Notes under the pieces: generated by a model
What the model was told of the DNA's origin: nothing
Database searches by the model: none
The model's input: only the letters and a program-made list of their open reading frames with translations
Position numbers and translations under genes: made by a program
NCBI RefSeq assembly: GCF_017355785.1
Contig: NZ_JAFEWE010000006.1
Coordinates: forward strand, 62,001 to 126,000
Length of the DNA: 64,000 nucleotides
Direction of reading: 5' to 3'
Origin: Desertivirga arenae
Lineage (GTDB): Bacteria > Bacteroidota > Bacteroidia > Sphingobacteriales > Sphingobacteriaceae
In this document: positions 16,829 through 20,975 of the stretch, piece by piece
Layout of the letters: each line of letters starts with the position of its first letter
How positions within the stretch are numbered: position 1 is the stretch's first letter

Positions 16829-17344
16829 ATGAAGAAAACACTTTTTGCAGCGATCGCATTCACTATCGTGACTGCATTTTCTGCTTCCGCGCAGCAAGAC
16901 AAATCCAAGCGTGTTAGTCCACCTGTTACCGTTACTGAAACTACCAAAAAAGGCGCAAAAATCACTATTACCTATGGTCAGCCTTCATTAAAGGGCCGTA
17001 AGATCGGAACAGATTTCGTTCCTTATGGTAAGGTTTGGAGAACAGGGGCAAACGAAGCCACAGTTTTCGAAATAGATAAAGATGTAAAGATCAAAGGACA
17101 GACACTTCCTGCAGGTAAGTATGGTTTATATACTATTCCTGGCGAGAAAGAGTGGGTGGTTATTTTTAATAAAACCTGGGATCAGTGGGGAACTAAGTAT
17201 TCAGAGGCTGATGATCAGTTAAGAGTAACTGTAAAACCTGAGCACTCTGAGAAATTTCAAGAGAAATTAGTGTTTGAGATTTCGAAAGCAGGCGAAGTTT
17301 CTATTGAATGGGGCGACACTGAAGTGGAGTTCGAAGCAAAATAA
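16829..17344 (+). CDS. DUF2911 family exported protein
   Basis: 171 residues with a Sec signal (MKKTLFAAIAFTIVTAFSASAQ). The mature part follows DUF2911: ITITYGQPSLKGRKIG, then VPYGKVWRTGANEATVFE, then LPAGKYGLYTIPGEKEWVVIFN and WDQWGTKY. The family is widespread in Bacteroidota and predicted to be periplasmic; no activity is established. It follows the propeller gene by 8 bp and ends at a strong terminator. Confidence 0.9.
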   Translation: MKKTLFAAIAFTIVTAFSASAQQDKSKRVSPPVTVTETTKKGAKITITYGQPSLKGRKIGTDFVPYGKVWRTGANEATVFEIDKDVKIKGQTLPAGKYGLYTIPGEKEWVVIFNKTWDQWGTKYSEADDQLRVTVKPEHSEKFQEKLVFEISKAGEVSIEWGDTEVEFEAK

Positions 17345-17986: not shown

Positions 17987-19000
17987 TTAAATTGGCTTCT
18001 GAACCTTTAGGTAGGGATTCCAGCTGGAAAGGGTTGAGAAGATCTTTAATAAGTAAGGGGTATGGAACCGTGGTTCTACTGAAAGTCCTAATAATGTAGA
18101 AACTTCGGCACCCAGCAAATGCGTCATTAGTTGCTGAACATCCTTTCGAGAAAGTTTTGATCCTGAGTCTAAACTAGTAAAAGTTTCAATTAAAGAATTT
18201 GTTAACTCTTTCCCCTGAATGGATTCTTTAAACTGTCTTACGCGAATTGCTTTTTCCAATTGATTTGCAGCCTTTCCATTCCTGGGAATGAGTCTTTCAT
18301 CAACACCTAACAAATAGGAAATAACAGCCCAGAGATGTAAGAAAGCCTGTTGATCCCGGTCATTGATCGTTATGCCTGTTTTACGGAGCCCTCTTATTAC
18401 AATCAGGGAGAATGCCAGACCTGTTCCCACCATATCTTCCTGATTAACGGGCACGCCCCATTTATCATTCCACTTGCCTGATTTCAGTGTGTAGTATCTG
18501 GCAATAGCATGAGTGAGGCGTGTCTTCAATATTCCTATAAAACCTCTACCCTGCCCGGCGAAAGCTCCTGGCGATTGTACATTTGTTACAAACTCACCCG
18601 TATCAGCAAGTCGTTTGGGAGTGTCGTTTCGTAGTCGCTCTGAAAGAAAAAGGACCATTGCCCCATCTGCTGCCGCATAGCAATAGGGTAAGGATAGCAG
18701 TCCAAGGAGCTGCATAATGGAATTTTGATATCGGCTGAAAAACGAGCATCCGAGGGATAACAATTTATCATCTGCCCATGTGGGAAGGTTTTGGGCTTGA
18801 GTAAAAACCTTTTCAGTCGCAAAAGGCAGGGGTAGATTTTGGAGGTCAGCATTCTGTGATGCTGCTCCTAACCAGTCGTACACCTCCTTCCGAGCCATAT
18901 TATCACTAAATGATCTATAGATAAAATCGTCCGCAAGTGGATCGCCCACCTCTCGCATGTCGGATAAGAAGTTATCGGTATAGAGGTAGGCTGAAGGCAT
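17987..19000 (-). CDS. MpaB/Lcp-type oxygenase (DUF2236)
   Basis: 337 residues, no signal peptide. The centre follows the DUF2236 signature: an Arg/His helix (RLTHAIARYY, the His being the conserved heme ligand of the family), then a Trp-rich turn, then WGVPVNQEDMVGT. Upstream lies a DGAMVLFLSERL helix. Known members are rubber oxygenase Lcp and fungal MpaB, heme-b proteins acting on isoprenoid chains. Its start overlaps the kinase stop by 1 bp, so it is the third gene of a coupled operon with a COQ8-type kinase and a TetR/COQ9-fold protein. Substrate unknown; a polyprenyl lipid is an inference. Confidence 0.85.
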   Translation of the reverse strand: MPSAYLYTDNFLSDMREVGDPLADDFIYRSFSDNMARKEVYDWLGAASQNADLQNLPLPFATEKVFTQAQNLPTWADDKLLSLGCSFFSRYQNSIMQLLGLLSLPYCYAAADGAMVLFLSERLRNDTPKRLADTGEFVTNVQSPGAFAGQGRGFIGILKTRLTHAIARYYTLKSGKWNDKWGVPVNQEDMVGTGLAFSLIVIRGLRKTGITINDRDQQAFLHLWAVISYLLGVDERLIPRNGKAANQLEKAIRVRQFKESIQGKELTNSLIETFTSLDSGSKLSRKDVQQLMTHLLGAEVSTLLGLSVEPRFHTPYLLKIFSTLSSWNPYLKVQKPI

Positions 19001-20325
19001 TAACTTTCTTTTTTAATATGAGGTGGATAAGTGTCTGTTTTCACGGTCGCTTTTAACTCATGCAAGATGTTATACAAACCGAAGTTAGTTCTATTAATGT
19101 AGATGAAGTGTTTTACTCCCCTTGCCTGTTTGAACTCAGGCATTCGTGCCATGCGATCCCCGTAGGCGTAGATCTGTTCGAAAAAATCAGTTTTACTGAA
19201 ATCGAAGATTCCGCTGGTATATGGGCGCGTAAATAAGGCGATCATTTCGGAGAAATTTTCATAATAAAACTCCACTTGTTGAGGTGAATCTTTAGGTAGG
19301 ATCATCTCCAGCTCCCTGAAGGCTTTCAACGTGGATTCTTTATCATTTAGCGCCCCCTTTAATGCCAAAGAGAAGAATGGATAATAAAAATCGTCTGGAA
19401 GCTCTTTAATACAGCCGAAATCAATTATCCCTAGTTTTCCCTCCGGTGTGATCAGGAAGTTCCCCGGGTGTGGATCGGCATGAACAGCTCTCAACTCGTG
19501 CTCCTGGAAATTGTAAAAATCCCACAAGGCCTGCCCTATTTTATTCCTCTCCTCCTGTGATGGGTCAGTCTGTAAATATTCCTTCAAATGAAGTCCTTCC
19601 AGCCAGCCCATTGTTATCGTTCTTTTACTGGAGAGCTCGGGATAGTATTCGGGGAACACTACATTTTCCAAAGCAGAACAAGCCTGGGAAAATTTAAGGG
19701 AACGGCGCACCTCCAACTCATAATCAGTCTCTTCCAGCAATCGTTCTTCAACCTCTCTCATATAAACATCCAGCTCTTTTTCGCTCATACCCAATAAACG
19801 GAAAGCAAATGGCTTAACAAGTTTTAAGTCAGAGGAAATAGAATCTCCTACTCCAGGGTATTGAATCTTTACAGCAAGTTTTTTTTCGCCAAGAAAAGCC
19901 TGGTGAACCTGACCGATAGAGGCCGCGTTAGTAGATTTGAGATCAAATTTATCGAACACCTTATCGGGAGTTTTTCCATAGTACTTTCGGAAGGTTTGAA
20001 CAATAAGAGGGCCTGATAATGGCGGCGCATTATATTGGGACTGAGAAAACTGATTTACGTATGCTTTAGGAAGGATATTTTTATCCATGCTCAGCATCTG
20101 AGCTACCTTCAACGCGCTTCCCTTCAGCTGGCTTAATGATTCGTAGATATCTGCAGCATTACTCTCGTTCAACTCATCCTTACTCAAGTCGGGATTGAAA
20201 AGCTTCTTGGAATAGTGCTTCACATAATTCCCACCTATCTTAAATCCGGTTTTAACGAACTGAGTAGACCGTTCAATCTTGCTGGTTGGAATACTGTCTT
20301 GTTCTTTGCGTGTATTTTCGCTCAT
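19000..20325 (-). CDS. ABC1/UbiB/COQ8-type atypical kinase
   Basis: 441 residues. Motifs of the UbiB family are present in order: LKGSALKVAQMLS (69-79, where the KxGQ motif reads Lys73-Val-Ala-Gln76), the Ala-rich loop NAASIGQVHQAF (133-144), the lysine of KLAVKIQYPG (Lys153), then ADPHPGNFL and the metal-binding DFG (IIDFGCIKEL). No C-terminal membrane helices are evident, unlike E. coli UbiB. In eukaryotes COQ8 supports coenzyme Q assembly as an ATPase. Here it is co-transcribed with a COQ9/TetR-fold protein (2 bp gap) and an MpaB-type oxygenase (1 bp overlap). Menaquinone or another lipid may be the target. Confidence 0.93.
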   Translation of the reverse strand: MSENTRKEQDSIPTSKIERSTQFVKTGFKIGGNYVKHYSKKLFNPDLSKDELNESNAADIYESLSQLKGSALKVAQMLSMDKNILPKAYVNQFSQSQYNAPPLSGPLIVQTFRKYYGKTPDKVFDKFDLKSTNAASIGQVHQAFLGEKKLAVKIQYPGVGDSISSDLKLVKPFAFRLLGMSEKELDVYMREVEERLLEETDYELEVRRSLKFSQACSALENVVFPEYYPELSSKRTITMGWLEGLHLKEYLQTDPSQEERNKIGQALWDFYNFQEHELRAVHADPHPGNFLITPEGKLGIIDFGCIKELPDDFYYPFFSLALKGALNDKESTLKAFRELEMILPKDSPQQVEFYYENFSEMIALFTRPYTSGIFDFSKTDFFEQIYAYGDRMARMPEFKQARGVKHFIYINRTNFGLYNILHELKATVKTDTYPPHIKKES

Positions 20326-20327
20326 GT

Positions 20328-20975
20328 TTAAAAAGGCATTTTGATGCCCGCATTCTTAGCTAAAAATTTTCCGTATTCGAATATGTTATCAAGAGGGGAT
20401 CTTTGAAAGAGATCAAAAGTGACGGTCAAGCCTTTTTCGATAGCCTCATCAGTTTTCTCAAAGCCCGAGGAGCTGTCTTTGATCCAGAAGTTTAAGACGA
20501 AGCCAAATTGCATCCACAGCGCATCTTTATATTTTCTGGATATAAATGCTCTATCCATTAGCTCTCCACTTTCAATGCCTTCCAGTAAAATTTCGGAACT
20601 AAAGCTTTCAAATAAGGGCTTAAGTTTATCCAACACCCGGGGACTACCAAGAGTTTTAGTAGAGCCATTCAGACTAAAAACGACAAAGCTTCGCCTGGAT
20701 TTCAAAAGCTCGAAAAAACTATAGAAAAGAGATAAAGCCTTCTCCCTGGCAGAGTACTGAGGCCAAACCTCCTGTGCTTTTACTTCATTTACAGCAAGGC
20801 TTAGTAAATTCAGCCATATATCTTGTTCGATGGCTTCAAAAGAGGCGTAATAATTATAAAAATCCTCTTCAGCCAGCTCATTATCTTTTGCAAACACAAA
20901 CACGCTTTTGGGTTGCTCCCCGTTGATCAGCACGTAGCTTATATAGGCATCCTGAAGTTTTTCTTTGATTTCCAT
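20328..20975 (-). CDS. TetR-fold protein with degenerate HTH
   Basis: 215 residues, all-helical. The N-terminal ~55 residues align by pattern to a TetR helix-turn-helix (AYISYVLINGE, SVFVFAKDNELAEEDFYNYYAS), but the usual basic and small recognition-helix residues are replaced by acidic ones, so DNA binding is doubtful. The C-terminal helices are ligand-pocket-like, as in TetR regulators and COQ9, a TetR-fold lipid-binding protein. It is the first gene of the operon with the UbiB-type kinase and the oxygenase. It could be either the local repressor or a lipid-handling partner. I favour the latter at moderate confidence. Confidence 0.75.
   Translation of the reverse strand: MEIKEKLQDAYISYVLINGEQPKSVFVFAKDNELAEEDFYNYYASFEAIEQDIWLNLLSLAVNEVKAQEVWPQYSAREKALSLFYSFFELLKSRRSFVVFSLNGSTKTLGSPRVLDKLKPLFESFSSEILLEGIESGELMDRAFISRKYKDALWMQFGFVLNFWIKDSSSGFEKTDEAIEKGLTVTFDLFQRSPLDNIFEYGKFLAKNAGIKMPF

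Follow-up and report, generated by a model that had tools for sequence, protein, structure and literature searches.

The window analysed here, a stretch of 64,000 nucleotides from Desertivirga arenae (Sphingobacteriaceae, Bacteroidota; contig NZ_JAFEWE010000006.1, positions 62,001 to 126,000), carries three closely spaced genes, here called A, B and C, for a TetR-fold protein, an ABC1/UbiB-type atypical kinase and a putative Lcp/MpaB-type heme oxygenase. We found that A and B form a pair that recurs across the Bacteroidota, in many relatives among genes for the repair of light damage, and that C appears to have joined this pair in a single clade. The explanation that we tentatively favour, at a little less than an even chance, is that A-B is a COQ8/COQ9-like module that acts on a non-ubiquinone isoprenoid lipid when cells face light or photo-oxidative stress, and that C is an extra oxygenase that would cleave C=C bonds.

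All three genes lie on the minus strand: A at 20328-20975 (215 aa), B at 19000-20325 (441 aa) and C at 17987-19000 (337 aa). By the coordinates of the open reading frames, A and B are separated by a 2-bp gap and B and C share 1 bp at position 19000, which reproduces the coordinates and spacing given for three coupled genes in a preliminary description made from the DNA letters alone. The families named there were also recovered. A Pfam scan assigned A to PF17931 TetR_C_23 (E 2.7e-41), B to PF03109 ABC1 (E 4.5e-49) and C to PF09995 MPAB_Lcp_cat (40.3 bits against a cut-off of 23), and phmmer matched C to the rubber oxygenase LcpK30 at E about 1e-24.

We examined gene order in 61 Sphingobacteriaceae genomes (the family sample) and in 247 genomes drawn evenly across the Bacteroidota (the phylum sample). 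A was present in 66 of the 247 phylum-wide genomes and a strong B in 80. In all 66 genomes with A, B was the next gene downstream and shared its strand (39/39 strong and 27/27 weak matches; for B, this adjacency count took in matches down to about E 1e-76). Within the family sample A occurred in 29 genomes. B was matched in 33, and its 29 strong matches fell in the same 29 genomes that carry A; the two genes adjoined in 28 of 28 intact cases. The order A then B was likewise found in 110 of 110 loci (L063-L172), drawn from genomes that partly overlap the 66. The nearest named relatives of A were in Pedobacter, Arcticibacter and Mucilaginibacter. As part of the favoured explanation as a whole, and with the same reserve, we regard A-B as one functional unit held together across the phylum.

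A strong B without an A match was found in 14 of the 247 genomes, one of which (G277) has a TetR_C_23 gene upstream of B. By eye, two further genomes of this kind, both from family f35, have a neighbouring TetR-like gene of another sort, and in loci L236 and L237 of f35 a canonical-looking TetR gene adjoins B and is followed by TolC- and RND-like frames. Inspection by eye also showed an extra frame between A and B in some genera, HAD-phosphatase-like in g14 (L042, L045 and L046) and PIN-like in g3 (L038 and L039). In two loci of family f23 (L223 and L239), the opposite strand past B encodes a protein of some 575 aa along with genes that, by eye, are HflC/HflK-like.

C followed B directly in six of the 61 family genomes, namely that of the window (G000) and G031, G020, G054, G025 and G041. 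The preliminary description had proposed gene order across the Bacteroidota as a check on a conserved three-gene unit. The A-B-C order is not private to one genome, and its recurrence in six argues that the arrangement is not due to chance. The unit that is conserved, however, is the pair, and we rejected the trio as a conserved system: C is adjacent in only six of the 29 family genomes with A-B, one of the 29 being a remnant. In a tree of B proteins, for which long frames were cut to their last 445 residues, the six C-adjacent genomes formed one clade (support 100/99). By this tree, the pair seems to have moved and gained C as its neighbour in a single event in one clade. The tree of C proteins, in which several rows have long branches, leaves a single origin of the A-B-C order unsupported (40/9).

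To describe the surroundings of the pair we used 80 named A-B loci, spanning 6 kb on either side of A where the contig permits; these are the best 80 of 269 and are biased toward the family of the window and partly clipped by contig ends. A photolyase or cryptochrome gene was present in 60 of the 80, an SDR-DUF2867 protein in 42, FolE in seven, and rhodopsin together with CrtY and Blh in two. By Pfam and NCBIfam the members of this photolyase/cryptochrome/pterin cluster include a DASH cryptochrome (over its cut-off), a DPRP photolyase-related protein, flavin reductase, DUF2867, DUF2805, GTP cyclohydrolase I, PTPS, SDR, rhodopsin, Blh and lycopene cyclase, with the PTPS and lycopene cyclase calls falling below their NCBIfam cut-offs. 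In the family sample a PF00875 photolyase lay within 10 kb of 13 of the 28 intact A-B loci; in G023 the contig that bears A-B is only 9 kb long, so that the absence of a photolyase there says little. Outside the family, light-cluster genes were found at six of 20 loci, in f3 (L225), f4 (L230, L231, L232 and L234) and f9 (L229), and one of these (L230) had such genes but no photolyase. The link of A-B with the light cluster is thus recurrent but not obligatory.

This link goes beyond the preliminary description, and the window itself does not show it. In the genome of the window, a locus with the order photolyase, SDR, CBS, DASH cryptochrome and sucA lies on another contig (CBS and sucA assigned by eye). 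The order is that found around A-B in Daejeonella (L129), minus A, B, the flavin reductase and SDR-DUF2867. Passages of one study (PMC5932025) report that Flavobacteriia with proteorhodopsin are enriched in a photolyase gene cluster, and the words "kinase" and "TetR" do not occur in its main text. Among the open-licence papers listed by searches for a photolyase-linked pair of ABC1/UbiB and TetR proteins in Bacteroidota, none dealt with the pair by its title, which does not prove novelty. The neighbourhood suggests that the pair may act on membrane lipids under light or oxidative stress.

The kinase motifs of B were counted in 124 close relatives, matched at E below 1e-90 and longer than 400 aa. 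The Lys of the VAIK motif, HADPHPGN and DFG were present in 124/124. The Ala-rich loop AASIGQVH had one or two exceptions per column, and the Asp of ExD was replaced by Asn in 15/124. The family motif of ABC1/UbiB kinases is KxGQ; in the B family it reads K[VI]AQ in all 124, with KVAQ at residues 73-76 of the window protein (20098-20109, minus strand) and Ala in place of the Gly in 124/124. The nearest solved relatives by sequence were 7cy2, an ABC1 family protein, and 5yjz, followed by COQ8B and COQ8A. B thus resembles COQ8 in sequence, but differs from it in the altered KxGQ motif and scores far under the cut-off of the UbiB equivalog TIGR01982 (135.2 versus 487.55 bits). COQ8B phosphorylates COQ3 and has been proposed to organise the COQ enzymes (passages of PMC7615680). 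By analogy, B may also be likened to the plastoglobule kinases ABC1K1 and ABC1K3 of plants, ABC1 proteins that, according to PMC7109304, take part in light acclimation by acting on the plastoquinone pool, a prenyl-lipid pool. A role of B in anti-phage defence was considered and rejected, B having only overlapped PD-T4-6 models weakly in the kinase domain.

The AlphaFold model of A (pLDDT 89) showed a complete TetR fold, helices 2-3 included, with an additional C-terminal helix at residues 195-209 that bears a conserved YGKFL stretch. The best Foldseek match was FadR of Bacillus subtilis (E 1e-4), and a profile of 26 A proteins searched against the PDB also found FadR, at E 3e-4. In the VIA comparison A scored Z 17.6 with 3c07, Z 14.7 with FadR and Z 14.0 with human COQ9 (6awl; rmsd 4.5 over 185 residues), and two other COQ9 entries followed at Z 13.8 (6dew) and Z 13.5 (4rhp), with many TetR regulators tied. 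No COQ9 chain was among the 50 Foldseek matches listed for A, an absence that is uninformative since VIA listed three among 50. With E values of up to 5 allowed, the profile of A proteins listed no chain of COQ9, in a search that set it against PDB chains and not directly against a COQ9 profile, and the Pfam scan gave no COQ9 family for A at E up to 1. Judged from the model, the resemblance to COQ9 is real yet not specific, FadR being about equally alike. The preliminary description had likened A to COQ9; the TetR/COQ9-type fold stands, and a kinship with COQ9 in particular is not supported. We dropped COQ9 orthology, for which the Pfam scan and the A profile gave no sequence support, and retained the structural likeness as a working one. 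What A-B shares with COQ8 (ADCK3/4) and COQ9 is the pairing of an ABC1/UbiB kinase with a TetR-fold protein; what separates A from COQ9 is that no sequence kinship was found. COQ9 itself has lost DNA binding; its traits include lipid binding and an amphipathic membrane helix at the C-terminus.

Whether A still reads DNA bears directly on its role. The alternative is that A remains a functional repressor of the TetR family, similar to FadR, that responds to acyl-CoA or an isoprenoid and controls its own operon, A-B(-C); we consider this unlikely. The complete fold and the FadR matches (3whb and 1vi0 are FadR-type regulators) speak for it, as does the finding that TetR_N is still matched in three of four distant A homologues beside B, at E 7e-5 to 0.0076, and in a protein of f2, at E 0.026; all four matches fall below the cut-off. 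These weak matches also fit a descent of A from a regulator. With E values of up to 1 allowed, the Pfam scan gave window A itself no TetR_N match (PF00440), and A is not among the 14 TetR_N matches of its own genome. Its putative former DNA-reading helix-turn-helix region, at residues 22-54 (20814-20912, minus strand), is acidic in the recognition helix. Among 125 A sequences longer than 195 aa, Glu36 was present in 125, Glu or Asp38 in 121 and Phe46 in 115, and the place of Phe46 was Lys or Arg in 13 of 13 control TetR proteins from the same genome (the 14 matches less one short one). The net charge of residues 7-53 of A averaged -3.1 (range -8 to 2), whereas the TetR_N-matched parts of the 13 controls averaged +1.0 (range -1 to 6); with overlap between the two ranges, charge is not decisive by itself. 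Because the recognition helix is acidic and TetR_N is absent, A is unlikely, on sequence grounds, to be a DNA-binding repressor, the very case that the preliminary description had set against its own reading. The same features set A apart from the FadR-type regulators, as does the coupling to a kinase gene in all genomes with A in the phylum sample.

The DNA upstream of A also bears on the repressor reading. A 28-bp element lies about 70-80 bp upstream of A (for example L092:939, L112:1479 and L122:5919), possibly a dedicated promoter, and was found in 30 of the 80 named loci. With a stricter pattern there were 19 matches in the 80 loci, 19/19 upstream of A, versus 6.0 matches expected in total from shuffles. 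In eight genomes chosen for having the element, its core occurred at 13 sites, eight upstream of A and five elsewhere, and the reversed control gave nine. An element so nearly private to the region upstream of A is what a private operator would look like, and it counts against our preferred reading in that it leaves autoregulation by A open. The element is, however, not a convincing dyad, its best mean being 4.7 of 10 pairs versus 3.1 averaged over centres. Most loci from other genera lacked it, and neither the window nor the photolyase locus of the same genome yielded a copy. Inverted repeats common to more than five upstream regions amounted to one family, in nine of 80. A clear autoregulatory palindrome was not found, either in the 80 upstream regions or by the dyad test of the element.

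The best Foldseek match of C was LcpK30 (E 6e-12, TM 0.78, 25% identity in the structural alignment), and the second was the t-anethole oxygenase 8s1j (E 2e-4). Equivalents of R164, T168, R195, H198, R202 and T230 of LcpK30 were present in 15 of 15 C homologues. In the window protein, His164 (18509-18511, minus strand; His in 15/15) aligns with the proximal heme ligand His198, and Arg130 to Thr134 (18599-18613, minus strand) align with Arg164 to Thr168. The alignment agrees with the preliminary description, which had read a DUF2236 His/Arg signature in C. In LcpK30, R164, T168 and H198 are heme or active-site residues, with Glu148 as the proposed base; the distal ligand, Lys167, is shared by 59% of 495 Lcps (passages of PMC5522427). 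C has the fold and heme Arg, Thr and His residues of LcpK30 and t-anethole oxygenase, but differs from LcpK30 at two of these places, Glu148 being replaced by Gly and Lys167 by Asp or Glu in 15/15 homologues; by eye, C also has no secretion signal. From its fold and alignment, C is a DUF2236 protein with an Lcp fold, the heme residues and an altered active site, and it would be expected to bind heme. The comparison with the COQ hydroxylase made in the preliminary description found no support, the fold being that of the heme-dependent C=C cleavers Lcp and t-anethole oxygenase and presumably not that of a COQ6/COQ7-type enzyme.

In the family sample C was present in 17 genomes, 15 of them with a strong match. 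Besides two loci with the A-B-C arrangement (L257 and L258), we examined 18 other C loci, 20 in all. Three of the 18 had light-cluster genes: in L244 and L245 FolE and a flavin reductase lie beside C, and in L250 C lies within a cluster of photolyase, DPRP, rhodopsin, CrtY and Blh. A second, divergent DUF2236 protein is encoded elsewhere in the genome of the window (G000:C1:33430-33924; L001, L265).

Under the explanation that we favour, B would be an ATP-using enzyme of the ABC1/UbiB family that acts at membrane lipids. A would be a one-time TetR regulator, probably without DNA reading now, that serves as its contact partner and most likely binds an isoprenoid or acyl lipid in the TetR pocket. 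The pair may work as COQ8 and COQ9 do, with ATP driving either access to a membrane isoprenoid or organisation around one. Bacteroidota are expected to use menaquinone and to lack ubiquinone, and the lipid could be, for example, menaquinone, a carotenoid or another polyprenyl lipid. Its use in light or photo-oxidative stress would be comparable with that of plant ABC1K1 and ABC1K3, for which we know of no TetR-fold partner. In the clade of the window the pair lies away from the light locus and beside C, whose target is probably a C=C bond in a lipid of this kind, which it would cleave or oxygenate. We see as doubtful, though not far-fetched, the bolder form of this explanation, a COQ8-COQ9-like machine of the Bacteroidota's own in which a former TetR regulator, permanently coupled to the kinase and no longer reading DNA, presents a lipid, the two together protect or remodel a pool of non-ubiquinone isoprenoids under light or photo-oxidative stress, and one clade adds an isoprenoid-cleaving heme dioxygenase of the Lcp type.

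A number of observations weigh against these proposals. By the same probes, 14 of the 20 loci outside the family had no light-cluster genes. G007 and G032 carry A-B, yet their genomes had no PF00875 match, and none of the six A-B-C genomes had a photolyase near the operon. Four named loci with C (L063, L064, L065 and L094) showed none of the light probes, and 15 of the 18 places of C away from A-B showed no light-cluster gene. The replacements at Glu148 and Lys167 belong here as well, as does a congener of the window, G006, that has no C match and keeps only a remnant of the pair (L061; G006:C19:620478-621240), in which residues 1-89 of A are fused to residues 266-439 of B by an apparent deletion of >1 kb; the module is therefore dispensable. 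Seven A-B genomes had no match to the phytoene/squalene synthase family PF00494, evidence that carotenoids are not the substrate in general; a genome with C (G022) had none either. We did not adopt a carotenoid in that general role. PF00494 was matched in 14 of the 15 strong-C genomes versus 29 of the 46 others (Fisher p 0.047, uncorrected for relatedness).

The loci and genomes without light genes, and the position of A-B away from the photolyase locus in the clade of the window, would fit inherited synteny without functional meaning, with A-B doing general menaquinone or membrane work. We think this improbable: the cluster recurs with differing gene orders in f1, f3, f4 and f9, and C joins light-cluster genes in two other arrangements. 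C, for its part, could be a passenger that acts on a substrate unrelated to A-B, perhaps an exogenous alkene, as does t-anethole oxygenase, its second structural match. C lies elsewhere in nine of the 15 strong-C family genomes, one of which (G022) has no A-B at all, and most of its places off A-B are free of light-cluster genes. Against this, three genera keep B and C at a spacing of -1 to 11 bp, the C proteins of the other five A-B-C genomes being 48-56% identical to that of the window, and in the three loci named above C stands beside FolE and flavin reductase or within a photolyase/rhodopsin/Blh cluster. To the passenger reading, too, we assign a low probability.

The roles of ABC1/UbiB kinases outside ubiquinone synthesis are an open question, for which the phylum-wide A-B pair offers a tractable system. 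The pair would be a prokaryotic parallel to COQ8/COQ9 and to the plant ABC1 kinases in light acclimation. If the part proposed for C is true, Gram-negative cells would contain a heme oxygenase of the Lcp type, with an endogenous isoprenoid as a substrate that can be put to the test; a 2018 review states, in one of its passages, that Lcp homologues are absent from sequenced Gram-negative genomes (PMC6311187). Near the operon, the window also carries a DUF2911 gene (16829-17344, by Pfam), and DUF2911 was found by similarity near A-B in three f4 loci (L230-L232).

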